Shown: positions 14,527-24,015 of the stretch, piece by piece
Layout of the letters: each line of letters opens with the position of its first letter
How positions within the stretch are numbered: the stretch's first letter is position 1
NCBI GenBank assembly: GCA_013349405.1
Contig: DUZS01000020.1
Span: 1-64,000 of the forward strand
Origin: Desulfuromonadales bacterium
GTDB lineage: Bacteria; Desulfobacterota; Desulfuromonadia; Geobacterales; Pseudopelobacteraceae
DNA: 64,000 nucleotides
Reading direction: 5' to 3'
Notes under the pieces: generated by a model
The model's input: the letters and a program-made list of their open reading frames with translations, nothing else
Databases searched by the model: none
What the model was told of the DNA's origin: nothing
Program-made: the position numbers and the translations under genes

Positions 14527-14755
14527 TGATAATTTTATGACCTCATAAAAAACCGCCCCTGAAATTATCAAGAGCGGCCTTTCTGCCTACAATAGCCCTC
14601 TCTCCACAAAACTCAGATAGAAGGCATCGCTGACAAACCATTAGACAGCTGAAGTAATGGATAAAATAGCAGCAGAAACCCTAAGGCAAAAATTGCCCGG
14701 GAGTACAAATGTTCACGAGAGACGCTTTATAAATATTTGAGACAAGGAGAAGTCA

Positions 14756-15208
14756 TTGGCAAAAGTAACTGAAAAATCTTTGAAGGCCCGGTGTACTGAA
14801 TTGAACATGGGACCATTGCGGAATACCACCTTTGGCATCCGGGCAACCCGGACAGGTAATGGTTATACCGTAGAACTCCTCTACCGTGACAGCACTCCTC
14901 CGCAGATCCTTGCCGAAGCAGTTACCGCTGCTGAAGCAAGCTCTGCAGTAGAGGGATGTGCCGCCGGAGCCGCTGCTGTACAAGTTGCGGGACTTGACAA
15001 ACCTGAATTCGTTACTCGGGAAACTTTCATTCGTCAATCAGGTGAGCGTTGCCCGAAGTGTGCAACGAAGGATATCAGCACGGGTCACCTGTCGGCGGTG
15101 AAGGGAGTAATGTCTCAGCATTGCTCTTGTCAGCGATGTGGGTTGTCTTGGAGAAGTATCTATCGTCTTGATGATTATGAAGCGGCTGTTTCGGTCATGG
15201 AGGGTTAG
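14756..15208 (+). CDS. zinc-ribbon protein of unknown function
   Basis: 150 aa from a TTG at 14756 with AAGGAG 8 nt upstream. The C-terminal third has a zinc-ribbon pattern: CPKC at residues 99-102 and CQRC at 125-128, followed by GLSWRSIYRLDDYEA. The N-terminal part is a mixed alpha/beta domain with an Ala-rich helix (AEAVTAAEASSAVEG). It may bind nucleic acid or be a phage/plasmid-type accessory protein. No close relatives recognised. Alone on its strand, between tRNA-Pro and the split HTH gene. Confidence 0.65.
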   Translation: MAKVTEKSLKARCTELNMGPLRNTTFGIRATRTGNGYTVELLYRDSTPPQILAEAVTAAEASSAVEGCAAGAAAVQVAGLDKPEFVTRETFIRQSGERCPKCATKDISTGHLSAVKGVMSQHCSCQRCGLSWRSIYRLDDYEAAVSVMEG

Positions 15209-15285
15209 TGCGGGTGGCCGCCAACGAGGGTACTGGTGACAGCGACATCGATAGGAAGTGATTTCTTTCCCGGGAAATAGTGATA

Positions 15286-15317
15286 TAGCGGCGGACATTA
15301 GGATAACGCCGCCGCTA
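15286..15317. repeat. inverted repeat, possible bidirectional transcript end
   Basis: TAGCGGCGG and CCGCCGCTA form a perfect 9-bp stem with a 14-nt loop between two convergent genes (ends 15208 and 15340). It has no T-run. A 12-bp palindrome TTTCCCGGGAAA lies 10 nt before it (15265-15276). Confidence 0.4.
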
Positions 15318-15339
15318 CATTAGAAATATCTTAAATGTA

Positions 15340-15702
15340 TTATGCGCATAACTCAAGATTAAAGCGGTTTGCCTTAACCATAGGTACAACTTCTCTCGCG
15401 TGCTGTTTAACGAGATCAATTATGCCGTAACCGGCCATAGTATGTAAGGTTCTCGACAAATTACTTTTGTTGCGACCCGTTAAGTCCCCTAATTCTCTGA
15501 GAGACCTGGGTTTTTTTCCCTCGATTACTCGTAACAACATTCAATTGTCATCACTCAGGACTTGAGCAAATGACTGCAAAGATTCAAACCAGACCTTTGG
15601 TTCGTCTTTCTCAGGCTTATACTCTCCCTTTGCAATAGTAATAGTCCTCTGCTTAAATTCCTCACGCGACATAATGCCGACGTTGATGCTCTTGGTTGTC
15701 AT
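15340..15702 (-). pseudogene. HTH DNA-binding protein (antitoxin-like) split by an in-frame TGA
   Basis: ATG at 15702 (GGAGA upstream) opens MTTKSINVGIMSREEFKQRT and runs 53 codons to a TGA at 15541-15543. The very next codon in the same frame is ATG (15540), and the frame continues for 66 more residues containing the winged-helix part (LRELGDLTGRNKSNLSRTLH). The two pieces join into one protein of the HVO_A0114/antitoxin-like HTH type, where the break point normally reads SD-x-N-x-LL. A single CGA-to-TGA change is the simplest explanation. Reinitiation at the adjacent ATG could still make both halves. No toxin partner is seen beside it. Confidence 0.75.
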
Positions 15703-15770
15703 ACGTTATCTCCACTAAACAAACGGAATGTATATGCTTATGGTGCTGTGAATATTATTTGAAATCCCAA

Positions 15771-16289
15771 TTACGGCAGACCCAGCAACTCTTTCACCAC
15801 ACCATCCAGACCTTCCTGACGGAGCAGCGTAAGAAAGAATTCCATGACGGTCGGCGCATGCGGACGGAATCCGTGCTGATGAAACGACATCCCAGCTTCG
15901 TGTGGTGTGCGGTTGTCCTTGCGGTTGTTGCATGGCTTGCAGGCGCTGACAGTTTGTTCCCATGAATTAACTCCGCCTCTGGACTTGGGCAGGACATGGT
16001 CAACCGTAAGTTCCGAAACGGGGAAATTCTTACCGCAGTAGACGCAATTGTATTCATCCCGTACGAAGAGGTTTCTCCGGTTCCATGTAACGCCGTGGCG
16101 GTACATTCTGCGGATCGCTTTCAGGAGCCGGATAACTTTGGGGAGAAGGAAGTGGCCTCGCAATGGGATATCGGAATCAACAAGGGATTCGGCCCGGTTG
16201 GAGGCAACGAGCCATGCCGCCCGGCGCCAATCAATTGTTCCCAGATACTGAAATCCGATGTTGAACACATATACGGTTCTGCTGGTCAT
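15771..16289 (-). CDS. HNH endonuclease
   Basis: 172 aa. Two CxxC zinc knuckles (CVYCGK and CKPCNN) frame the HNH core (LTVDHVLPKSRGGVNSWEQT, then NNRKDNRTPHEAGM), with the catalytic DH and the Asn/Lys cluster intact. HNH enzymes cut DNA, or RNA in some families, with one metal ion. The N-terminal 75 residues are a conserved alpha/beta lead (YVFNIGFQYLGTIDWRRAAW). It begins 22 nt after the RtcB stop and has AAGGAGAAATAGGTC upstream, so it is the last gene of the RNA-ligase cluster. That location makes a role in nucleic-acid processing or defence plausible. Confidence 0.9.
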   Translation of the reverse strand: MTSRTVYVFNIGFQYLGTIDWRRAAWLVASNRAESLVDSDIPLRGHFLLPKVIRLLKAIRRMYRHGVTWNRRNLFVRDEYNCVYCGKNFPVSELTVDHVLPKSRGGVNSWEQTVSACKPCNNRKDNRTPHEAGMSFHQHGFRPHAPTVMEFFLTLLRQEGLDGVVKELLGLP

Positions 16290-16310
16290 GACCTATTTCT
16301 CCTTCTGTTA

Positions 16311-17612
16311 TTATTCCCCCTGTGCCTTGATATTGATCAGGGGCTTCACGAAATCTATTACTTCGATCACTATGCCCTCCTGATAGGCGATGACCGAGGT
16401 TATGTCCTTATACGCACCCGGTGCTTCATCAAGGGTGGTCTTATCTGATGTTGAGACTATCCCTGCCATTTGACCTTTGAACTCTTCAAGGTCGAGGCTG
16501 CGCTTTGCTTCCTTCCGCCCCATTCTCCGCCCACAACCATGGGAAGCAGACGACAGGTATTCCTGATTACCGAGACCGCGTGTGATATACACGCCATCCC
16601 GCATGTTCGCCGGGATAATGCCGATCTGGCCAAGATCTGCCGGAGTTGCCCCTTTACGGTGCAAGACACCATCAGTCGTTTCAACGGCGTGATTGTGATT
16701 TTCGTTGACCATTACGGTCATAATCCGCGCGATGTCCTGTTCACCGAAATTCATCAGAGCCAAAACCGTCCGAAGCATCGTCTCACGATTATAGAGAGCG
16801 AAGTTTAGGGCAAAATTCATATCGTGCTGATATGCCTGCCCCAAATCGGAGCTTAGCGGGAACAGCCGCCCTTGTTTCATGTAATAACCACCGATGCTAT
16901 GGCCGACATTACGCGACCCACTGTGAATAGTGATGCAGACTTCGCCACTCCGGTTTTCGCCTATCTCGATAAAATGGTTGCCGCCGCCAAGAGTCCCGGC
17001 CTGGTTCTCTACTTTGTCGTTGACACGTGTGATGAGATCCTTGTTGCCAGAAGGAGACACAAACTTTGGAAAACCGAAGACTTTACTCTTTCGGCTTGCA
17101 AACCCTGACGGGATTAAATTCTGGATCTTCTGAAACAGGCCCACTTTTGCTCTTGAGTCCGGAAGCAGATCTGCAGTTCTGATGCCCGTTGAGATATACA
17201 CCATGCCACAGCCAATATCGTAGCCGACAAATGACGGTGAGATATGATCGTCAAGAAGCGCAACTCCGCCGATTACCAAGTCATATCCGGTGTGAACATC
17301 CGGCATGATCACCAGTTTTTTCAGGCAATCAAGCGAGAGGACGTCGTGAATCTGCGTGAGAGCGGACGGTTCTATTTCATCCAATGGAATCAATAATTGC
17401 AACTTGTCGGTACTGGTCACAGCATTCTCCTTGTTCATAATTGTGAGAGTGGAGGGAGCGTTTTCGCTTTCCTCCACGGCTGCCATCCTTGCAACGTGAT
17501 CAGAATGCTTCTCGAATCCTTCGCTGGTGCGTGATACACCAGAGACCTTCCAGGGCTTACACATTTTGCAGCCTGCACGCTGGTTTCTGGAGCGACCTCG
17601 TTTGTGATGCAT
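16311..17612 (-). CDS. rtcB: RtcB-family RNA ligase with an N-terminal Cys/basic domain
   Basis: 433 aa from the ATG at 17612 (TGAGGAATGGA upstream). The ligase part starts near residue 59 and keeps the RtcB catalytic set: MPDVHTGY, DIGCGM (Asp132, Cys135), GGGNHF (Asn212, His213), IHSGSRNVGH (His230), NENHNH, HRKGA, and SASHGCGRRM with the guanylylated His (358). RtcB joins 2',3'-cyclic phosphate or 3'-phosphate RNA ends to 5'-OH ends using GTP and Mn2+, repairing cleaved tRNA or rRNA. The first about 58 residues are a separate basic segment (KRGRSRNQRAGCKMCKPWKV) usually seen as a stand-alone small protein. An ATG at 17438 would give a 375-aa ligase alone but lacks a ribosome site. It overlaps nothing and starts 8 nt after the upstream small gene. 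Confidence 0.93.
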   Translation of the reverse strand: MHHKRGRSRNQRAGCKMCKPWKVSGVSRTSEGFEKHSDHVARMAAVEESENAPSTLTIMNKENAVTSTDKLQLLIPLDEIEPSALTQIHDVLSLDCLKKLVIMPDVHTGYDLVIGGVALLDDHISPSFVGYDIGCGMVYISTGIRTADLLPDSRAKVGLFQKIQNLIPSGFASRKSKVFGFPKFVSPSGNKDLITRVNDKVENQAGTLGGGNHFIEIGENRSGEVCITIHSGSRNVGHSIGGYYMKQGRLFPLSSDLGQAYQHDMNFALNFALYNRETMLRTVLALMNFGEQDIARIMTVMVNENHNHAVETTDGVLHRKGATPADLGQIGIIPANMRDGVYITRGLGNQEYLSSASHGCGRRMGRKEAKRSLDLEEFKGQMAGIVSTSDKTTLDEAPGAYKDITSVIAYQEGIVIEVIDFVKPLINIKAQGE

Positions 17613-17620
17613 TCCATTCC

Positions 17621-17932
17621 TCACTTTCTGAAATACGTCTTTTTCCATCTGTTAATTGCTTTTTGGATAGTGCTCCCATAAGGATTTTCCCAGTCCCTGC
17701 AAAGGTTCTCACGGCGATAAATCCAGCGACCCCACCGCTCAAGATGCTCATTGATGGTGGTTCTATCCACAACGTCATGAATATCCCAGGTCTCGTACAA
17801 CTTCCGGTACGCGTTACCGCTGGGTATGCCCCCTTTGTACCTGCGCACCTTTCTGTTTGCAAAACACTTCCCGATTCTGCCACGGACCGGCGCATATTTG
17901 AGCACCGGGTGCTTCTTGAAACTTCGAGCCAT
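17621..17932 (-). CDS. small basic protein of phage/plasmid type, RtcB cluster
   Basis: 103 aa, very basic (MARSFKKHPVLKYAPVRG, then FANRKVRRYKGGIPSGNAYR), with Trp/Tyr-rich segments (LYETWDIHDV, RWGRWIYRREN, WENPYGSTI). This resembles a widespread family of small hypothetical proteins in phages and mobile elements that begin MARSFKK; their function is unknown to me. The charge suggests RNA binding. AAGGAGG precedes the ATG and a 7-bp hairpin lies just before it (17952-17970). First protein-length gene after tRNA-Phe and the leader ORF, and only 8 nt from the RtcB start. Confidence 0.75.
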   Translation of the reverse strand: MARSFKKHPVLKYAPVRGRIGKCFANRKVRRYKGGIPSGNAYRKLYETWDIHDVVDRTTINEHLERWGRWIYRRENLCRDWENPYGSTIQKAINRWKKTYFRK

Positions 17933-17951
17933 TTATCTGGCCTCCTTGTCG

Positions 17952-17970
17952 GAGAACCTCAAGGGTTCTC
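17952..17970 (-). promoter_or_regulatory. hairpin between leader ORF and the RtcB cluster
   Basis: GAGAACC and GGTTCTC form a perfect 7-bp stem with a 5-nt loop, starting 2 nt after the leader stop codon and ending 3 nt before the ribosome site of the 103-aa gene. Ribosome position on the leader could control whether it forms. Confidence 0.4.
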
Positions 17971-17972
17971 AC

Positions 17973-18002
17973 TTACAAAAAGGCGTCATCATAAAAATAC
18001 AT
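17973..18002 (-). CDS. 9-residue leader ORF MYFYDDAFL
   Basis: ATG at 18002 with AAAGGAGATATC upstream, a near-perfect ribosome site, encodes MYFYDDAFL and stops. Four of nine codons are Phe or Tyr. It lies between the tRNA-Phe gene and the RtcB cluster and is followed by a hairpin, as in translational attenuators. The coding call rests only on the ribosome site and context. Confidence 0.4.
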   Translation of the reverse strand: MYFYDDAFL

Positions 18003-18025
18003 GATATCTCCTTTACGTGAAAAAA

Positions 18026-18101
18026 TGGTGCAAGGGGTCGGTATTGAACCGACTGCCTGTGAATTTTCAATTCACCGCTCTACCATTTGAGCTACCCTTG
18101 C
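18026..18101 (-). tRNA. tRNA-Phe (anticodon GAA), atypical, with encoded CCA
   Basis: 76 nt. Acceptor GCAAGGG/CCCTTGC, D-arm GCTC/GAGC, anticodon stem GTGAA/TTCAC with loop TTGAAAA (anticodon GAA), T-arm GTCGG TTCAATA CCGAC, discriminator A and CCA. All stems are perfect, so it looks functional. The AT-rich anticodon stem and loop region and the D-loop differ from housekeeping bacterial tRNA-Phe genes, which hints at phage or island origin. A T6 run follows the CCA. It is co-oriented with, and directly upstream of, the leader ORF and the RtcB cluster. Confidence 0.92.
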
Positions 18102-18115
18102 ATTTTATTATGCTG

Positions 18116-18184
18116 GGAGCGGGTATCGGTGCCGCCCCGATCTGGCTGGGGATATGAACCCCTGCTGTTCACTGGAACACCCGC
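18116..18184 (-). ncRNA. cloverleaf-like RNA element or degenerate tRNA
   Basis: On the minus strand a 7-bp closing stem (GCGGGTG/TACCCGC) encloses three hairpins: a 3-bp arm (TTC/GAA), an imperfect arm GCAGGGG TTCATAT CCCCAGC and ATCGG GGCGGCA CCGAT. The order copies a tRNA with a shrunken D-arm and a CAT-containing middle loop; CCCA follows the discriminator position. The T-loop lacks TTC, so it is not a normal tRNA. It may be a tRNA pseudogene or a tRNA-like RNA. It lies 15 nt upstream of tRNA-Phe. Confidence 0.4.
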
Positions 18185-18194
18185 ATCATTTGAT

Positions 18195-18248
18195 TGAGAG
18201 GGGAGTCCGCTAAGATGTTTCATCTACAGCGGGCTAACCCATCTCTAA
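18195..18248 (-). ncRNA. long imperfect hairpin in leader of the tRNA-Phe/RtcB cluster
   Basis: GAGATGGG/CCCCTCTC (one mismatch), an internal loop, CCGCT/AGCGG and AGATG/CATCT stack into one rod-like stem with a tiny AAA loop. Together with the cloverleaf element it makes a densely structured RNA upstream of tRNA-Phe. It could be part of the primary transcript or a separate small RNA. Confidence 0.4.
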
Positions 18249-18309
18249 TCCAGGCGAGGCATGCTCTGGGCCTCCTTTGATGCATCCGCGCAACCTGAAT
18301 TAATTAAAC

Positions 18310-18344
18310 TAAAAAACCCCCTAATCATCTGACTAGAGGGTGTT
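18310..18344 (-). terminator. rho-independent-like terminator, minus strand
   Basis: On the minus strand CACCCTCTAG pairs imperfectly with TTAGGGGG and is followed by six T. No protein gene of normal length ends here, so the terminator implies a short transcript from within 18345-18640. Confidence 0.45.
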
Positions 18345-18640
18345 TGAACGGCACTCTTCTCAGGATGATTAACTATGTATTGGACTTCCGCCTACATATT
18401 GTCTGGCAATAAATCGATACAGTGACAATGTGGATGTACCGGTCTCCGCGTGGAGTGCACATTCTGATAATGCTGTATGCCAGGAACGTGAAAATAGCGG
18501 TCTTAAAATCATTTGAAAGTTTTTCCCCTTCTTTGATATTTGTTCAGTTTGCGGAGGGATCTGCCCCTCCCGCATTCTGCACACATAATTCAGTTGTCTT
18601 ACTTATCAGGCTTCCTTTGACTCAGTTACTCTATAAACGA
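18345..18640. other. gene-poor gap between two minus-strand terminators; small RNA or peptide candidate
   Basis: No convincing protein of normal size. On the minus strand an ATG at 18586 opens 25 codons (MCAECGRGRSLRKL, very basic, CxxC) to 18509, without a clear ribosome site. A GC hairpin (GGAGGG-n-CCCTCC type) lies at 18551-18573. The flanking terminators suggest an independent short transcript. Confidence 0.25.
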
Positions 18641-18676
18641 AAAAACCCGGCCATCTCAAATGAGGGTCGGGTTTCA
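18641..18676 (-). terminator. terminator of the glycerate kinase transcript, minus strand
   Basis: AAACCCGACCC and GGCCGGGTTT (minus strand) form a strong stem followed by a T6 run, the expected end for the glycerate kinase and 47-aa ORF transcript. Confidence 0.65.
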
Positions 18677-18679
18677 TGA

Positions 18680-19020
18680 ACACATAAAAATGCGTTGCTA
18701 ATCCTTACCTCACGTTAAAATCCTCTTTTGAGGAGTACTCTGTAACTGCAAAAATGCCATTATCCCAGCTCTCGCTGATAAAATTGTGCATCCCACGGCA
18801 CAGTGGTTGTGCAAAGGATGATTTCAACGGATATGTGGCGTTCATTGATTGCATATAACCGCTCTCAAAATTTGATAGTCCGCCTTATAACAGATATAAT
18901 TTGATCGTGTCAACAAAAAGTTTAATAAAAGTCTGGCTGCATCAAAAATCATGAGTCACATGAATTGCATTCAAGCAGAATTCCATCAATGCTTACTTTC
19001 AAATTCCACATTGGCACCCG
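18680..19020. other. intergenic, no gene seen
   Basis: AT-rich with no supported ORF, probably the untranslated end of the glycerate kinase transcript. A TTGGCAC-n-TTGC string at 19012-19028 mimics a sigma-54 promoter but has 11 nt between GG and GC, one too many. Confidence 0.4.
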
Positions 19021-19164
19021 CTATTGCTTGACAGGCTTATGTACAAGGTATTCGTATTCTTCATCATGATGCTCAAGCCAGTGAAGAACTTCGTCATCGT
19101 CCATTTTAGCAGATAGGCTTGTGTACGTTTCGCGGAAACGTTTTATCAGATTTGCATTTTCCAT
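19021..19164 (-). CDS. 47-aa acidic protein coupled to glycerate kinase
   Basis: ATG at 19164 follows GGAGGTTTGAA, so its ribosome site lies in the last codons of glycerate kinase and its start is 1 nt after that stop. The product starts MENANLIKRFRETYTSL and becomes strongly acidic and His-containing (MDDDEVLHWLEHHDEEYEY). It is predicted helical, with no Cys and no membrane segment. It may modulate the kinase or be an unrelated small protein. No family recognised. Confidence 0.6.
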   Translation of the reverse strand: MENANLIKRFRETYTSLSAKMDDDEVLHWLEHHDEEYEYLVHKPVKQ

Positions 19165-19165
19165 T

Positions 19166-20299
19166 TCAAACCTCCATCTTTAGAATAGCAGCAATGTTTC
19201 GAGAAGCAGTTCGTACATTTACGGCCGCATTTGTTAAGGCTTCCTCCACGGTACAAACCTGGCTGATTACACTGAAGACGGCGTCAAAGCCGTGGCCATG
19301 AACCACGGCTGCATCGCTTGACAGGCAGCCGGCAATGCCGATGACCGGTTTTCCATACCGTTTGGCCATGCGTGCTACACCAATCGGCGTTTTGCCATGT
19401 ATGGTCTGACTGTCAATGCGTCCCTCTCCGGTAATCACCAGATCGGCATGCTTCACGATAGCCTCAAATCCGACGGCTTCCATGATGATTTCGATACCGG
19501 GCCGTAACTGTGCCCCCAAGAATGCAAGCAAGGCAGCGCCCATACCACCTGCTGCCCCCGCGCCCGGCACTGACTCCACCTGCACACCCAGGTCCCGATG
19601 AATTATGCTGGCATAGCGGATAAGATTTGCGTCCAAAGCTGCCACCATCTCCGGCGTAGCGCCTTTCTGCGGCCCGAAGACCGCACTAGCCCCCTTCGGG
19701 CCTGTTAACGGATTGTTAACATCGCAGGCTGCTTCAATCCGGCACGACCTCAGACGCGGGTCAATACCACTGATATCGATGTGCTCAAGATTCGTCAGCT
19801 CATCGCCGCCACATCCGATTCCACATCCGTTAAGATCCAGCAGTTTTACCCCGAGAGCCTGAAGCATTCCGGCTCCCCCGTCGTTGGTCGCACTACCGCC
19901 GATACCGATGATGAGGTGGTTGACACCCGTATCGAGCGCTGCCTTTATCAACTCTCCGGTACCATAGGAAGTTGTTTTCAATGGATTGCGTAGATGGGTG
20001 GCGATCAAGGCAAGGCCACTGGCAGCTGCCATTTCGATAATAGCTGTTTTACCATCACCGGTCAGACCATAGAAAGCGGTGACCGGTTCACCCAGGGGAC
20101 CTGTCACATCCACCTCTCTACGTGTGCCTCCGGTGGCGTCGACCATTGCGGCAACGGTACCTTCGCCGCCGTCAGCCATAGGCAGTTTGAAGTAATCCGC
20201 ATCCGGGAATATCTCGCGAAAGCCAGCTTCGATCTCTGTTGCCACTTCAAGTGCGGTCAAACTTTCTTTGAATGAATCGGGAGCTATGACTATCCGCAT
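19166..20299 (-). CDS. glxK: glycerate kinase (GlxK/GarK family)
   Basis: 377 aa from the ATG at 20299 (a GTG two codons earlier is possible). The N-terminus MRIVIAPDSFKESLTALEVA, the segment LPMADGGEGT and the glycine loop IGIGGSATNDGGAGMLQALG are hallmark features of type-I glycerate kinase, which makes 2- or 3-phosphoglycerate from glycerate with ATP. The enzyme is cytoplasmic. It lies downstream of the pirin remnant and shares a transcript with the 47-aa ORF that follows. Confidence 0.93.
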   Translation of the reverse strand: MRIVIAPDSFKESLTALEVATEIEAGFREIFPDADYFKLPMADGGEGTVAAMVDATGGTRREVDVTGPLGEPVTAFYGLTGDGKTAIIEMAAASGLALIATHLRNPLKTTSYGTGELIKAALDTGVNHLIIGIGGSATNDGGAGMLQALGVKLLDLNGCGIGCGGDELTNLEHIDISGIDPRLRSCRIEAACDVNNPLTGPKGASAVFGPQKGATPEMVAALDANLIRYASIIHRDLGVQVESVPGAGAAGGMGAALLAFLGAQLRPGIEIIMEAVGFEAIVKHADLVITGEGRIDSQTIHGKTPIGVARMAKRYGKPVIGIAGCLSSDAAVVHGHGFDAVFSVISQVCTVEEALTNAAVNVRTASRNIAAILKMEV

Positions 20300-20322
20300 G
20301 GGCACAACCTTTCGATTACCTT

Positions 20323-20493
20323 TTATTTCACGAATGTTCCGTGCCGATACTCGTCAAAAGCAATTTTCAGCTCTTCCTGGGTGTTCATAACAACCGGGCC
20401 GCTCCAATACCCGAAGGCCCGCTTCAGATGGACACCCGCACCTTCGATGGTGGGGAGGCTTTTGAATATTTTTGAAATTCGGCGTGTGGTCAT
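20323..20493 (-). pseudogene. pirin remnant with in-frame internal deletion (56-aa ORF)
   Basis: The ORF encodes the first 29 residues of pirin (MTTRRISKIFKSLPTIEG to RAFGY) joined in frame to the last 27 (WSGPVVMNTQEELKIAFDE to FVK). The intact paralogue is at 23010-23921; about 240 central residues, including the metal-binding cupin, are missing. Its ATG overlaps the ADP-ribosylglycohydrolase stop (ATGA), so it may still be translated as a mini-protein. It cannot have pirin activity as known. Confidence 0.88.
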
Positions 20494-21512
20494 GCTTGAT
20501 CATCTTTCTGCTGTGTTGGCGTCAGAGCCACCGCCGCGACAATTTGCTCTATGTCAGCTTCGATCTGGTCATGAGCCGAAAGTTTGGTCAGCCATGCAGC
20601 AGGAATAGCCTCAATTCCGAGATATGCTCCGAGCCAGGCACCAATCATGGCAGCTCTTCCGGCATTATCACCACCGGCGTTAGCAGTAGCTGTCAAAGCT
20701 TCTGCAAAGTCATTTGAGCAGATAAGCATCGTATGCAGGGCCGCAGTAAAGCTTGAGAGGAGCGGACAGGATTGCCCGAAAAGCATGGTTGCATCATGCA
20801 CGGAAAGTGTCCGTGAGGCGCTGGCTGATTCTATCCGTTCTATGACTTCAGAATACTGGTTCTCCGGTGATTTTATGATCAGAATTGTTTCGGAAATGGC
20901 TGCCTCTGGGGAACTGCCATTGATCAGAGCTCGCAGTATCAGGGCCGTTGCCTGTGAGTAAGCGATAGCTCGCAGGTTGTTCTGACATACCCGGGTTACC
21001 TTTGCTATCGTGCCAGGCAGGGCATCGTCATTCAGATGTGATACCACTATCGGGGCAAGATGGGTAACCGTAGCAGGTTGGTCATCATCTGCCCCGTGTT
21101 GAAAATTAAAGGGAGTGGTTGGATTGTTGTCGTGATAGGCACGATAATTGGCGATCATGCCCTTGGTGGCATGGTCGCGGTAGCCGGTGTAGGAGTCATC
21201 GGTCATGAGCTTGATCAACTGCGACCCAAAGTCGTATGCATCGAAATGCCCGCATCGGGCAACTGAATCCAGAACAAGCAGGGCGGCATCCCCGTAATGA
21301 GTAAAGTCACCGGATTGCTTACCATCATGGTAGTGTCCGGAAAACGGGGTCTCGAAACCTTTAATTCCCCCCGGAAATCGTGTCGCTACTTCATCCAGAT
21401 TATAAATCCAGTGGCTTCCCAAGCAGAACGCATCACCAATGAGGCTCCCCCATAAAGCCCCCCGCATTCGATCTTTAGATGAAACAAACTTTTCTTCAAA
21501 TTTGATTGTCAT
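20490..21512 (-). CDS. ADP-ribosylglycohydrolase family protein
   Basis: 340 aa from the ATG at 21512. The family signature is visible: RMRGALWGSLIGDAFCLGSHWIYN near the N-terminus, FTHYGDAALLVLDSV, and a late metal-ligand segment GGDNAGRAAMIGAWLGAYLG. Members remove ADP-ribose from protein or nucleic acid (DraG type) or hydrolyse related compounds. It may be an ARH-like housekeeping hydrolase rather than nitrogenase DraG. Its upstream region and first three codons (MTI) copy those of the pirin gene, and its stop abuts a pirin remnant, so it looks inserted into a duplicated pirin gene. Confidence 0.87.
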   Translation of the reverse strand: MTIKFEEKFVSSKDRMRGALWGSLIGDAFCLGSHWIYNLDEVATRFPGGIKGFETPFSGHYHDGKQSGDFTHYGDAALLVLDSVARCGHFDAYDFGSQLIKLMTDDSYTGYRDHATKGMIANYRAYHDNNPTTPFNFQHGADDDQPATVTHLAPIVVSHLNDDALPGTIAKVTRVCQNNLRAIAYSQATALILRALINGSSPEAAISETILIIKSPENQYSEVIERIESASASRTLSVHDATMLFGQSCPLLSSFTAALHTMLICSNDFAEALTATANAGGDNAGRAAMIGAWLGAYLGIEAIPAAWLTKLSAHDQIEADIEQIVAAVALTPTQQKDDQA

Positions 21513-21573
21513 AATATTTCCCCTTTTACTCATTGTCTGCCTCGACGCTGCCTTCCGTCAAGGGGCTTTCTCT
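21509..21573. repeat. copy B of the pirin upstream region
   Basis: The stretch TGCCTTCCGTCAAGGGGCTT with flanking CATTGTCTGCCT and the start-site segment matches 23918-23979, with only scattered differences over about 60 bp. It now serves the ADP-ribosylglycohydrolase gene. Confidence 0.8.
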
Positions 21574-21729
21574 GTTCCTTGATCAGAAAGAATTGCCACG
21601 TTAATCATGAACCAGCTGTTTCGGGTATTTTATTGGGGGTGCTTACTTTACCAAGAGGGAGTATAATCAACATCGGCCATTGAACAAGGCGGCAAGGGTA
21701 ATTAAATCTGAATAAGAGGGAGAATAGCG

Positions 21730-22719
21730 ATGCCGAAAATAGTCCGTTTTTATGAAACAGGTGGACCCGAAGTACTCAAAATAGAGGAGTCACCACTTAT
21801 GGAGCCTGGTGTGGGCGAGGTTCGTCTCAAAGTTGAAGCGATAGGCCTGAATCGGGCAGAAGTAATGTTCCGACAGGGGCAATATCTGGAAAATCCGACA
21901 TTCCCATCTCGACTCGGCTATGAAGCTGCGGGGGTTGTAGATGCAATCGGTCCTGGTACTGTCGGCATTAACATCGGCGACCGGGTAAGCACCATTCCTT
22001 CATTTTCAATTGGTACCTATGGCGTCTATGGAGAAAGCGCCGTTGTGCCAGCATATGCTGCAGCCCATTATCCCGAGAAACTATCCCCGGTTGAAGGGGC
22101 CGCGATCTGGATGCAGTATCTGACGGCCTTCGGGGCGCTTATCGAATTCGGAAAATTGCAGAAAGATGACACTGTATTGATCACTGCGGCGAGCAGCAGC
22201 GTCGGATTAGCCGCAATCCAAATCGCAAAGTCAGTCGGGGCGACCGCCATTGCCATTACCCGCGGCGCCGATAAGAAATCCTTTCTCATGGAGGCCGGGG
22301 CGGATCACGTTATAGCGACTGACGAACAGGACCTGGTTGAAAGCGTCATGGCCATTACATCTGGAAAAGGTGCTGAAATGGCATTTGACCCAATTGCCGG
22401 AGCAATGTTGGGAGAGCTTGCCGGTGCTGCAGCTCCCGGTGCAACTATCTTTGAATATGGAGCACTGTCGTCGGCACCGACCACATTTCCCCTGTTTTCA
22501 GCGCTGGCCAAGGGCTTGACTGTGCGCGGGTACACCCTGTTTGAGATCGCCAAAAATGCAGAAAGTCTTGCCCGTGGCAAACAGTTTATCTACAACGGAC
22601 TTGAGAATGGCGTATTGAAGCCGGTTATCGATCGAGTATTTCCTTTAGAAAGTATTGTTGAAGCCCACAGGTACATGGAATCCAACCGGCAAAAAGGCAA
22701 AATTGTGGTACAAGTCTGA
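21730..22719 (+). CDS. zinc-less MDR-family quinone oxidoreductase / alcohol dehydrogenase-like
   Basis: 329 aa. The medium-chain reductase fold is clear: GroES-like N-terminal part (PGVGEVRLKVEAIGLNRAEV, then YEAAGVVDAIGPGT) and a Rossmann domain with VLITAASSSVGLAAIQIAKS. The structural and catalytic zinc ligands of alcohol dehydrogenases are absent, pointing to the NADPH:quinone reductase branch. A cytoplasmic redox enzyme for quinones or enones. Transcribed away from its neighbours and flanked by copies B and C of the pirin upstream region. Confidence 0.9.
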   Translation: MPKIVRFYETGGPEVLKIEESPLMEPGVGEVRLKVEAIGLNRAEVMFRQGQYLENPTFPSRLGYEAAGVVDAIGPGTVGINIGDRVSTIPSFSIGTYGVYGESAVVPAYAAAHYPEKLSPVEGAAIWMQYLTAFGALIEFGKLQKDDTVLITAASSSVGLAAIQIAKSVGATAIAITRGADKKSFLMEAGADHVIATDEQDLVESVMAITSGKGAEMAFDPIAGAMLGELAGAAAPGATIFEYGALSSAPTTFPLFSALAKGLTVRGYTLFEIAKNAESLARGKQFIYNGLENGVLKPVIDRVFPLESIVEAHRYMESNRQKGKIVVQV

Positions 22720-23009
22720 AAAATGAAACCAGCTCTTGACCTGTGCTCCTGATTGAGACTTCTGCGCGGGTGCTGATACATCGACAGCATAGCCGAATGT
22801 GGCGTATATAAGCGGCATGGAATCAGTACGCATTTCTATTCTGAGGCTCTGGCAATAGGAGTTACACTCCGACAAATCCAGGGCCTTTTATTTTGTCTGC
22901 ATGTACAGAAAACTGCAGTTCCCTCTGTTGAAAATGTCGTACCAACAAATTTCATATTTTAATTAATGTTACGATCCCAAAGACTTGATACTGAGGAAGA
23001 ACAACACAC
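22720..23009. repeat. intergenic with copy C of the pirin upstream region
   Basis: Positions 22885-22962 match 23965-24042 (ATTTTGTCTGCAT, CAGTTCCCTCTG, TGTCGTA, TTTCATAT in the same order and spacing). The rest of the gap shows no supported gene. A weaker version of the dyad at 24016-24035 is at 22927-22946 (GTTG/CAAC). Confidence 0.7.
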
Positions 23010-23921
23010 TTACTTAATGAACGTTCCATGCCGATACTCGTCAAAGGCAATTTTCAGCTCCTCCTGGGTGTTCATAACAACCGGACCGTTCCAGGCCACC
23101 GGTTCGCCCAAAGGTTTCCCGGAAACAAAAAGGAAGCGTACCGGCTTATCTGTCGTTGTTATCTCGATTGCTTCGCCTGCATGTTCAAACAGTACTACCG
23201 TTTCAGCCACGCAGAGGCAGTGATGCTCGGTTTCCGACCAGCCGTGACCAACCATTTCATATGCACAGGCATCCCGCTGATCGTCAAAATACCCTTCTCC
23301 GGACAAGATGTAGGCGAAGGCAGTATGTCCGGTCGGCAGCGAGTGAGAAAATAGTGTCCCGGCTGGCACGCTGATATCAAGCATTTCCGGTTCAATGACA
23401 ATATCTCCCACAGGTCCCTGTACGCCTGCCACCTCCCCGGCTATGATTTTGACCATGACACCATTATCAAGCGTTACGTTCGGGATTTCATTCGCCTTGA
23501 CGTCGCGGTAACGAGGCGACATCATCTTTTGAGAGGCCGGTAGATTGGCCCAGAACTGGAATCCCCACATGGTGCCGGTCGGGCTCACCTGGGGCATCTC
23601 CTGATGGATAACGCCGCTGCCGGCGGTCATCCACTGCACATCACCGGCACCGATAGTCCCCTTGTTGCCCATGCTGTCACCATGTTCAACAAGCCCCTCC
23701 AGGACATAGGTAATCGTCTCGATACCCCGATGCGGATGCCAGGGAAATCCGGCCAGATACTCGTCCGGATTGTCAGTATAAAAATCATCCATCATCAGGA
23801 ATGGGTCAAACAGGGGCACCTGGGCATACCCGAAGGCCCGTTTCAGATGGACACCCGCACCTTCGATAGTGGGAAGGCTCTTGAATATTTTTGAAATTCG
23901 GCGCGTGGTCATGATAGTCAT
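23010..23921 (-). CDS. pirin family protein
   Basis: 303 aa from the ATG at 23921 (AAAAGGAGATATT upstream). Pirin/cupin features: FPWHPHRGIETITYVLEG with the metal-binding histidines, HGDSMGNKGTIGAGDVQWM, SGVIHQEMPQ, and the second cupin half with PTGHTAFAYILSGEGYF. Pirins are iron-binding cupins; several have quercetin 2,3-dioxygenase activity or act as redox-linked co-regulators. Cytoplasmic. A truncated paralogue lies at 20323-20493. The promoter region carries a 7-bp dyad at 24016-24035. Confidence 0.95.
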   Translation of the reverse strand: MTIMTTRRISKIFKSLPTIEGAGVHLKRAFGYAQVPLFDPFLMMDDFYTDNPDEYLAGFPWHPHRGIETITYVLEGLVEHGDSMGNKGTIGAGDVQWMTAGSGVIHQEMPQVSPTGTMWGFQFWANLPASQKMMSPRYRDVKANEIPNVTLDNGVMVKIIAGEVAGVQGPVGDIVIEPEMLDISVPAGTLFSHSLPTGHTAFAYILSGEGYFDDQRDACAYEMVGHGWSETEHHCLCVAETVVLFEHAGEAIEITTTDKPVRFLFVSGKPLGEPVAWNGPVVMNTQEELKIAFDEYRHGTFIK

Positions 23922-24015
23922 AATATCTCCTTTTGCGTCATTGTCTGCCTTGACACTGCCTTCCGTCAAGGGGCTTTCATTTTGTCTGCATCTACAAAAG
24001 AATACAGTTCCCTCT

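Follow-up and report, generated by a model that had tools for sequence, protein, structure and literature searches.

Gene content of the locus

The window examined here is a stretch of 64,000 nucleotides from a Desulfuromonadales bacterium (assembly GCA_013349405.1, contig DUZS01000020.1, positions 1 to 64,000), whose genome (G000) comprises 3.43 Mb in 60 contigs and is 96% complete. An earlier note on this DNA had described a compact cluster of a tRNA-Phe gene, a leader open reading frame (ORF), a gene for a small basic protein (here BAS), an RtcB RNA ligase gene and an HNH nuclease gene, all on one strand. All of these parts were confirmed at that place, on the minus strand between 18101 and 15771. 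The order from 5' to 3' is a 194-nt element, tRNA-Phe(GAA), leader ORF, BAS, the RtcB ORF and HNH (Table 1), and every ORF of the operon is open in the ORF list of the window.

The RtcB ORF matched PF01139 (E 3.9e-76) and, in agreement with the earlier note, the motifs DIGCGM, GGGNHF, HSGSR, NENHNH and SHGCGR, which we take to be catalytic in the window protein, fall within its alignment to a solved RtcB. The HNH gene product matched HNH_5 (E 2e-16). The tRNA-Phe gene was called by ARAGORN and scored 67.9 bits with Rfam. A second, canonical tRNA-Phe(GAA), clearly different in sequence and with the same anticodon loop, lies elsewhere in the genome (G000:C14), and the window gene is therefore extra; redundancy with the host set was found for Phe, the only specificity examined. 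To judge from its sequence, the window tRNA-Phe is not of the host's kind. The suggestion that this tRNA is a spare was thus borne out, and the circumstance named in the earlier note as speaking against it, that this might be the genome's only normal tRNA-Phe, does not apply.

Table 1. Coordinates of the features of the locus in the window.
Feature	Position	Strand	Basis
Terminator-like hairpin with T run, directly ahead of the array	18306-18345	-	By eye in sequence
Conserved non-tRNA array element, 194 nt	18112-18305	-	Comparison with relatives, folding
Supernumerary tRNA-Phe(GAA), CCA encoded, sole array tRNA remaining in the window	18026-18101	-	ARAGORN, Rfam
Leader ORF MYFYDDAFL*, 9 codons	17973-18002	-	Sequence; Shine-Dalgarno-like AAGGAG
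Hairpin, last leader codons pair with BAS Shine-Dalgarno	17940-17984	-	Folding
BAS, basic 103-aa protein	17621-17932	-	Homologue comparison
N-terminal extension of RtcB ORF (GCKMCKPWK)	17439-17612	-	Homology to stand-alone small ORFs
RtcB RNA ligase ORF, 445 aa, RtcB domain from ~residue 71	16311-17648	-	PF01139
HNH endonuclease, 172 aa	15771-16289	-	HNH_5
Block common to the window and relatives' mobile element	14616-22968		Identical end points against L267 and L268

The locus in related genomes

Among 141 genomes of the order, nine gave a match to BAS and five of these a full-length one; the five, which include the window's own, all belong to the window's genus, and the locus is present in 5 of the 39 genomes of that genus. 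Upstream of BAS, the array reads Tyr-Ser(GCT)-element-Trp-Ser(TGA)-Phe in G084 (five tRNAs), the same in G103 (five tRNAs, spread over two contigs), Ser(GCT)-element-Trp-Ser(TGA)-Phe in G111 (four tRNAs), Tyr-Ser(GCT)-element-Phe in G096 (three tRNAs) and element-Phe in the window. The element, tRNA-Phe, leader, BAS, RtcB and HNH are retained in all five genomes, the G103 element and the G084 RtcB gene each being split by contig ends. The search that the earlier note had proposed, for conserved neighbours with an adjacent tRNA gene, therefore found array and genes together in four other genomes, and the same genes in the same order there, together with the low substitution ratios of RtcB and HNH given below, argue that the cluster is more than a chance association.

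As three to five tRNAs lie at the same locus in four relatives, the single tRNA is regarded as the last survivor of an array, and the window locus appears, on comparison of these sequences, to be a shrunken tRNA array. A purpose-built module with a single decoy tRNA, as previously envisaged, is not supported, the lone tRNA being a leftover. Long tRNA arrays hold about 11 or more tRNAs; with one tRNA in the window and three to five in the relatives, none of these loci is a dense run of that kind. Homologues of BAS or HNH elsewhere sit among up to 31 tRNA genes.

A glycerate kinase gene precedes the array in all five genomes except G103, where none was seen. An empty site was not found, stretches around glycerate kinase homologues from six genomes sharing just the kinase gene with the window. 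G111 and G096 share the block of Table 1 with the window, its ends falling at identical positions whichever of the two is compared; outside it, matches are limited to short repeats and repeated pieces of a pirin gene. On one side of the locus, G111 carries a tyrosine (phage-type) integrase with Arm-DNA-bind_3, a UvrD-like helicase and an Hsp70-like protein, and on the other F-type type IV secretion system genes (TraC, TraN), beyond which lie type III restriction genes and the gene of a PF13166 AAA protein. The integrase region recurs in G096 (94%), where a TrfA-like replication gene adjoins the locus (L033). This gene content, with integrase and F-type transfer genes around the G111 locus and the locus in 5 of 39 genomes of the genus, points to horizontal mobility. 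These data appear to suggest that the array is carried by an integrative, probably conjugative element, of which the window copy would be a remnant with an accessory operon BAS-RtcB-HNH.

Beside HNH, an HVO_A0114-type regulator gene (15702-15340, minus strand) is interrupted in both the window and L033, by an in-frame stop, and is intact in L036. A short ORF at 20323-20493 consists of the two ends of the nearby pirin gene (23010-23969) and represents a second, internally deleted copy, a fuller form of which occupies that place in L046.

The ratio of non-synonymous to synonymous substitution rates (dN/dS) in the relatives was 0.09-0.15 for RtcB and 0.06-0.13 for HNH. Both genes are still under purifying selection in the window despite the shrunken array. 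Against L033 and L034, respectively, substitutions per 100 sites numbered 2.6 and 0.5 in the element, 1.3 and 1.3 in tRNA-Phe, and 1.1 and 0.0 in the leader region, compared with 5.1 and 4.4 in the upstream region; the terminator-like hairpin differs by one substitution from L033 and by none from L034. These values bear on the possibility that the locus is dead, a fragment of a lost mobile element that is decaying, serves no function today and shed its tRNAs one by one. The loss of all but one tRNA, the position of the G111 integrase outside the shared block, the interrupted regulator gene in the window and L033, and a BAS dN/dS that is not low would all fit such decay. The constraint on RtcB and HNH (0.06-0.15), the slower change of tRNA-Phe, leader and element (0.0-2.6 against 4.4-5.1 upstream) and the open state of all operon ORFs do not, and decay without function is considered improbable.

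Leader ORF and hairpin upstream of BAS

The final codons of the leader are base-paired with the Shine-Dalgarno sequence ahead of BAS, in a hairpin with arms GCCUUUUUGU and ACAAGGAGGC and inner segments GAGAACC and GGUUCUC. The 94 nt segment folded at -28.9 kcal/mol (z -3.68), and only 1 of 200 shuffled sequences folded as well. The leader MYFYDDAFL* is identical in the four relatives (L033, L034, L035 and L046), and the single substitution in the L033 hairpin retains a G-U pair.

The same layout was seen ahead of viral BAS genes, with a very short ORF whose last part supplies one side of the stem that encloses the BAS ribosome-binding site. In a first set, leader plus hairpin preceded 15 of 30 BAS genes compared with 31 of the 555 control genes drawn from these loci (p 2e-10), a post hoc figure, as the rule had been made after viewing the upstream sequences of 28 viral genes. 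This set held 28 of 36 viral contigs (six identical copies and two without a defined start were left out), two plasmids and the window; L146, with a weak ribosome-binding site, was dropped, reducing 31 genes to 30. As a BAS profile run against 395 genomes of the phylum recovered the window's own genome and no other, new viral contigs were used for validation. With the rule unchanged, this independent test gave 7 of 21 BAS genes against 8 of 233 (odds ratio 14, p 4e-5), after L333 had been dropped from the 22 for a weak ribosome-binding site. The new BAS genes are 49-67% identical to the nearest gene of the first set, and among clusters of new genes less than 60% identical to that set, 6 of 14 had leader and hairpin (p 2e-5); the first set, treated as 60% clusters with the window not included, gave 13 of 26. 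Clustering was applied to the BAS genes and the controls were unclustered. These data indicate, at the level of predicted structure and statistics, that leader and hairpin form a conserved arrangement, which is the firmest new result of the analysis.

A leader ORF with its own ribosome-binding site and a predicted hairpin over the site of the next gene are the components of a translational attenuator, and stalled ribosomes may switch BAS on. What the leader would sense can be read in two ways. Four of its nine codons in the window specify Tyr or Phe, matching two tRNAs of the ancestral array. It may alternatively sense ribosome-targeting antibiotics rather than loss of tRNAs, which would make the cassette a response to drugs or translation stress. 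The family as a whole lends itself to this idea, as several viral leaders end in Val-Phe-stop or have just two codons, and the 22 leader-plus-hairpin genes, with Phe-stop endings in 8 and two codons only in 7, fit no single amino acid. The leader peptide MsrDL (MYLIFM*) stalls at its own stop codon with erythromycin (PMC10314930), and translation inhibitors induce the tRNA array of Anabaena (PMC10272220). The Tyr and Phe codons of the window leader and the many phages among the hosts of the family weigh against this reading, and we consider antibiotic sensing a serious contender that nevertheless falls short of even odds.

The BAS family

BAS of the window had no Pfam match over the cut-off and no NCBIfam match, and its two PHROGs hits were weak (E 0.0019 on residues 80-100, and E 0.03). 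Ten diverse members of the family had no PHROGs match at E 0.01, and three had no Pfam match over the cut-off. The window protein is basic, and the signature of the family reads MSRSYKK...YKKLYxSWDIxD. BAS thus appears to represent an undescribed family, without a convincing match in Pfam, PHROGs or NCBIfam. An AlphaFold model (mean pLDDT 69) was too weak for a structure search and was not used; as a guess from its charge, BAS probably binds RNA.

At least three tRNA or transfer-messenger RNA (tmRNA) genes lay near BAS in 24 of 36 viral loci of the first scan and 16 of 22 new ones of the second (40 of 58 in total, some contigs being copies of one phage), compared with at least three tRNA genes in 7 of 80 viral RtcB loci. 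Of these tRNA and tmRNA genes, 661 were on the BAS strand and 11 on the opposite one, and in the first viral set the density fell from 1.61 tRNA genes per kb within 500 bases of BAS to 0.47 per kb at 6-10 kb. BAS homologues are also carried by two Firmicute megaplasmids, with 26 and 27 tRNAs in the surrounding stretch, and in a Lactobacillus phage a tRNA-Arg gene lies ~15 bases upstream of the homologue. BAS-like proteins also occur at another site of the window's own genome and in four further genomes of the order, in each case with no tRNA in the stretch examined. By this distribution BAS would be a family of tRNA arrays. In several viral contigs and one plasmid that have BAS, RtcB or HNH (L131, L133, L135, L161 and L285), tmRNA genes are interspersed with the tRNA genes.

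The 194-nt element

Of 277 genomes of the class, five contain the element, and each of these belongs to the window's genus; the L046 copy is identical (100%). The segment 18305-18190 of the element forms two strong stem-loops, and 18184-18119 a cloverleaf-like fold that has CAU at the anticodon position. The folding z was -3.15 for the 5' half and -0.86, an ordinary energy, for the cloverleaf half, and the cloverleaf-like fold was rare in shuffled sequences (15/2000). This fold has no normal T loop and was missed by ARAGORN and Rfam, and it lies inside the element kept in all five genomes. The element had no Rfam match, even at a relaxed E-value, and no blastn relatives in plasmids or phages. 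Identity with a bacterial Y RNA, which would be recognised by an Rfam match and a Ro60 partner, was dropped, as neither that match, nor TROVE/Ro60 in the genome, nor blastn relatives were found.

RtcB and its neighbourhoods

No further RtcB locus was found in the window's genome. RtcA, RtcR, archease and Ro60/TROVE had no match in this 96%-complete genome; PrfH was not searched. The absence of archease, RtcA and Ro60 reported in the earlier note therefore extends to the genome searched, and the RtcA cyclase and RtcR of an rtcBA repair operon are both without a match. The protein is also no RtcB2 of the PrfH-linked type by profile score, with 159.2 bits for NF007153 (cut-off 407) and 131.1 bits for TIGR03073 (cut-off 271.8).

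The RtcB domain begins near residue 70-71 of the ORF, and residues 13-57 are matched by short independent ORFs of sphingomonads and viruses; this N-terminal extension probably has its own start, 8 nt past the BAS stop. Its linkage to arrays is weak, since only 3 of 13 matching loci have a tRNA within 30 bases, the other 10 having none in the examined stretch.

Among viral RtcB loci, 28 of 80 had any tRNA gene, at 0.253 per kb within 500 bases of RtcB and 0.06-0.09 further out, so that the surroundings of viral RtcB genes in general exceed the background. An HNH gene of the window type was present in 4 of 86 viral RtcB loci, at least one contig being counted twice, and lay within ~650 bases of RtcB in three (L085, L161 and L231, with 8, 10 and 25 tRNA genes). 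The combination of RtcB, HNH and tRNA array thus recurs, although rarely. tRNA-Pro made up 10 of the 23 tRNA genes within 600 bases of viral RtcB compared with 4 of 86 further away (L166, L168, L170, L171, L183, L185, L186, L193, L200 and L234, some of which may be near copies); a defence that cuts tRNA-Pro would explain this.

The HNH endonuclease

Homologues of HNH were found in 67 plasmid and 65 phage records, 18 of which were sampled by hand for taxonomic spread. Nine of the 18 contained at least three tRNA or tmRNA genes, 185 in total and all on the HNH strand; one homologue lies among 26 tRNA genes on a plasmid of M. intracellulare (L286). Because this type of HNH sits among tRNA genes in half of the sampled records, an attacking role was not shown for it, and it is more likely a DNA enzyme of the array than an attacker.

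A reading along the lines of the earlier note is a defence against phages or plasmids, in which HNH attacks, the tRNA serves as decoy and RtcB repairs. The nearest thing to support comes from G111, where type III restriction genes and a PF13166 (PrrC-like AAA) protein are found in the same region (L271:16806-19040, ~42 kb from the array). In PADLOC this protein strongly matched a candidate defence family and weakly PrrC, and it is a candidate tRNA-cutting defence. PF13166 had no match in the window's genome, G084, G096 or G103, other kinds of anticodon nuclease not having been searched, and a PrrC/RloC-like defence of this sort was thus not found in the window's genome. The PADLOC hits of the window HNH, PtuB and Cas9 among them, were weak matches of the HNH domain (best E 1e-7), and the type occurs among phage and plasmid tRNA genes. 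A defensive role of this kind is accordingly judged very unlikely. A co-encoded anticodon nuclease as a general explanation was likewise dropped, with a strong PF13166 match in one of the five carriers.

HNH could instead be a homing endonuclease that spreads the array, with RtcB and BAS as unrelated passengers. In mycobacterial arrays an HNH-type endonuclease is the most widespread protein gene and is linked to change in the tRNA repertoire (PMC5966550), which would suit this explanation. The recurrence of the RtcB-HNH neighbourhood in L085, L161 and L231, and the joint rise of rtcB, an HNH gene and the array in Anabaena (PMC10272220), argue against RtcB as a passenger, and homing alone is thought unlikely.

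Proposed function

RtcB joins RNA ends bearing 2',3'-cyclic phosphate and 5'-OH. The link between RtcB, supernumerary tRNAs and tRNA damage that the earlier note had drawn is the most plausible theme; the genes occur together elsewhere and the tRNA is extra. We propose that the cluster is a stress-inducible cassette for tRNA replacement and repair and the remnant of a mobile tRNA array, an explanation to which, taken as a whole and including the mobile element, we assign a probability of roughly 0.55. By analogy with Anabaena, Salmonella and phages, it is read as an inducible supply-and-repair kit on a mobile element. As Anabaena suggests, damage to host tRNAs or a stall in translation would be met with spare tRNAs from the array. 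The leader and hairpin would act as a translational attenuator, a proposal whose arrangement rests on sequence and statistics: by default the BAS ribosome-binding site would be closed, and a ribosome held on the leader, by uncharged tRNA-Tyr or tRNA-Phe or by a ribosome inhibitor, would presumably open it. BAS and RtcB would then be made, and RtcB would reseal tRNAs or rRNA with the ends described above. HNH, as a DNA endonuclease, may keep, move or reshuffle the array.

Several observations weigh against this proposal. With one tRNA left, the tRNA-supply role may be lost in the window and perhaps the repair half alone kept. BAS dN/dS was 0.31-1.28 on 6-9 changes, the few substitutions being mostly non-synonymous. 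A leader of the defined kind was absent from half of the BAS genes first examined and from two thirds of the new ones, 18 of 58 viral BAS contigs did not have three or more tRNA genes, and nine of the 18 sampled HNH records had none; arrays of at least three tRNA genes were similarly scarce at viral RtcB loci (7/80). Around the closest RtcBs outside the genus (Persephonella, Geothermobacter and Synergistaceae; L037-L044), neither HNH nor BAS was found in the stretch and one of the eight loci had a single tRNA, and the two closest viral RtcBs (L159 and L160; 57-58%) had no tRNA in 21 kb. In folding of truncated window RNAs, a second hairpin could still cover the site with the ribosome at the leader stop, and alternative hairpins covered or partly covered it at several ribosome positions; folding gave no clean open state for the window leader.

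A wider proposal is put forward tentatively, at less than even odds: BAS would define a new family of proteins belonging to tRNA arrays, whether in phages, megaplasmids or conjugative elements, and stalled ribosomes would turn it on via micro-ORF leaders. If so, mobile arrays with BAS, RtcB and HNH would be no passive stocks of tRNAs but translation-rescue cassettes that regulate themselves and detect tRNA damage in cis. The use that phages, plasmids and conjugative elements make of tRNA arrays has long been under discussion, with codon supply, defence evasion and stress survival as candidates. A linked array, RNA ligase, HNH and leader-controlled small protein would open stress survival and repair to direct testing, and BAS proteins with their micro-ORF leaders, being found in viral and plasmid arrays, would offer a means of telling when arrays are used.

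Comparison with known systems

The closest parallel is the trn operon and TrcR regulon of Anabaena PCC 7120, where supernumerary tRNAs on a megaplasmid, RtcB and HNH likewise belong to one stress response. TrcR repression of the otherwise silent 26-tRNA array is relieved by translational stress or translation inhibitors, and a trcR deletion mutant over-expresses the 26-tRNA operon, rtcB (77-fold) and the HNH gene all8564 (17-fold) (PMC10272220). The genes described there are scattered and under a repressor, whereas those of the window form one linked cassette with a leader and BAS. The likeness of all8564 to the window gene is at the level of both being HNH genes.

In mycobacteria, the array units of plasmids and phages also place extra tRNAs on mobile DNA, in the M. 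intracellulare plasmid (L286) with a homologous HNH gene among them. They hold far more tRNAs than the locus studied here, and the terms "RtcB" and "ligase" are absent from the main texts describing them (PMC5966550, PMC12803027). In Salmonella, RtcB belongs to an operon, rsr-yrlBA-rtcBA, that is switched on by cut tRNAs and joins RtcB to a noncoding RNA in an answer to tRNA damage (PMC7790460); the window's genome, in contrast, has no match for RtcA, RtcR or Ro60. Phage tRNAs and ligases are regarded as answers to tRNA-cutting defences (PMC10264068, PMC7824862). Where RtcB of jumbo phages lies near supplied tRNAs it is similarly taken to mend cut tRNAs, although the available account describes no BAS-like protein, leader or such cassette (PMC7824862). 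MsrDL-type leader peptides share the tiny leader ORF and the hairpin ahead of a controlled gene; MsrDL acts on transcription and answers macrolides, whereas the window hairpin is predicted to hide a ribosome-binding site (PMC10314930).

A partial search of the literature turned up no account of array leaders, of BAS proteins as a family or of a cassette that links tRNA array, RtcB and HNH. Taken singly, array, RtcB and HNH are familiar, and so is their joint regulation in Anabaena; the new part lies in the linked cassette, the BAS family and the array leaders.

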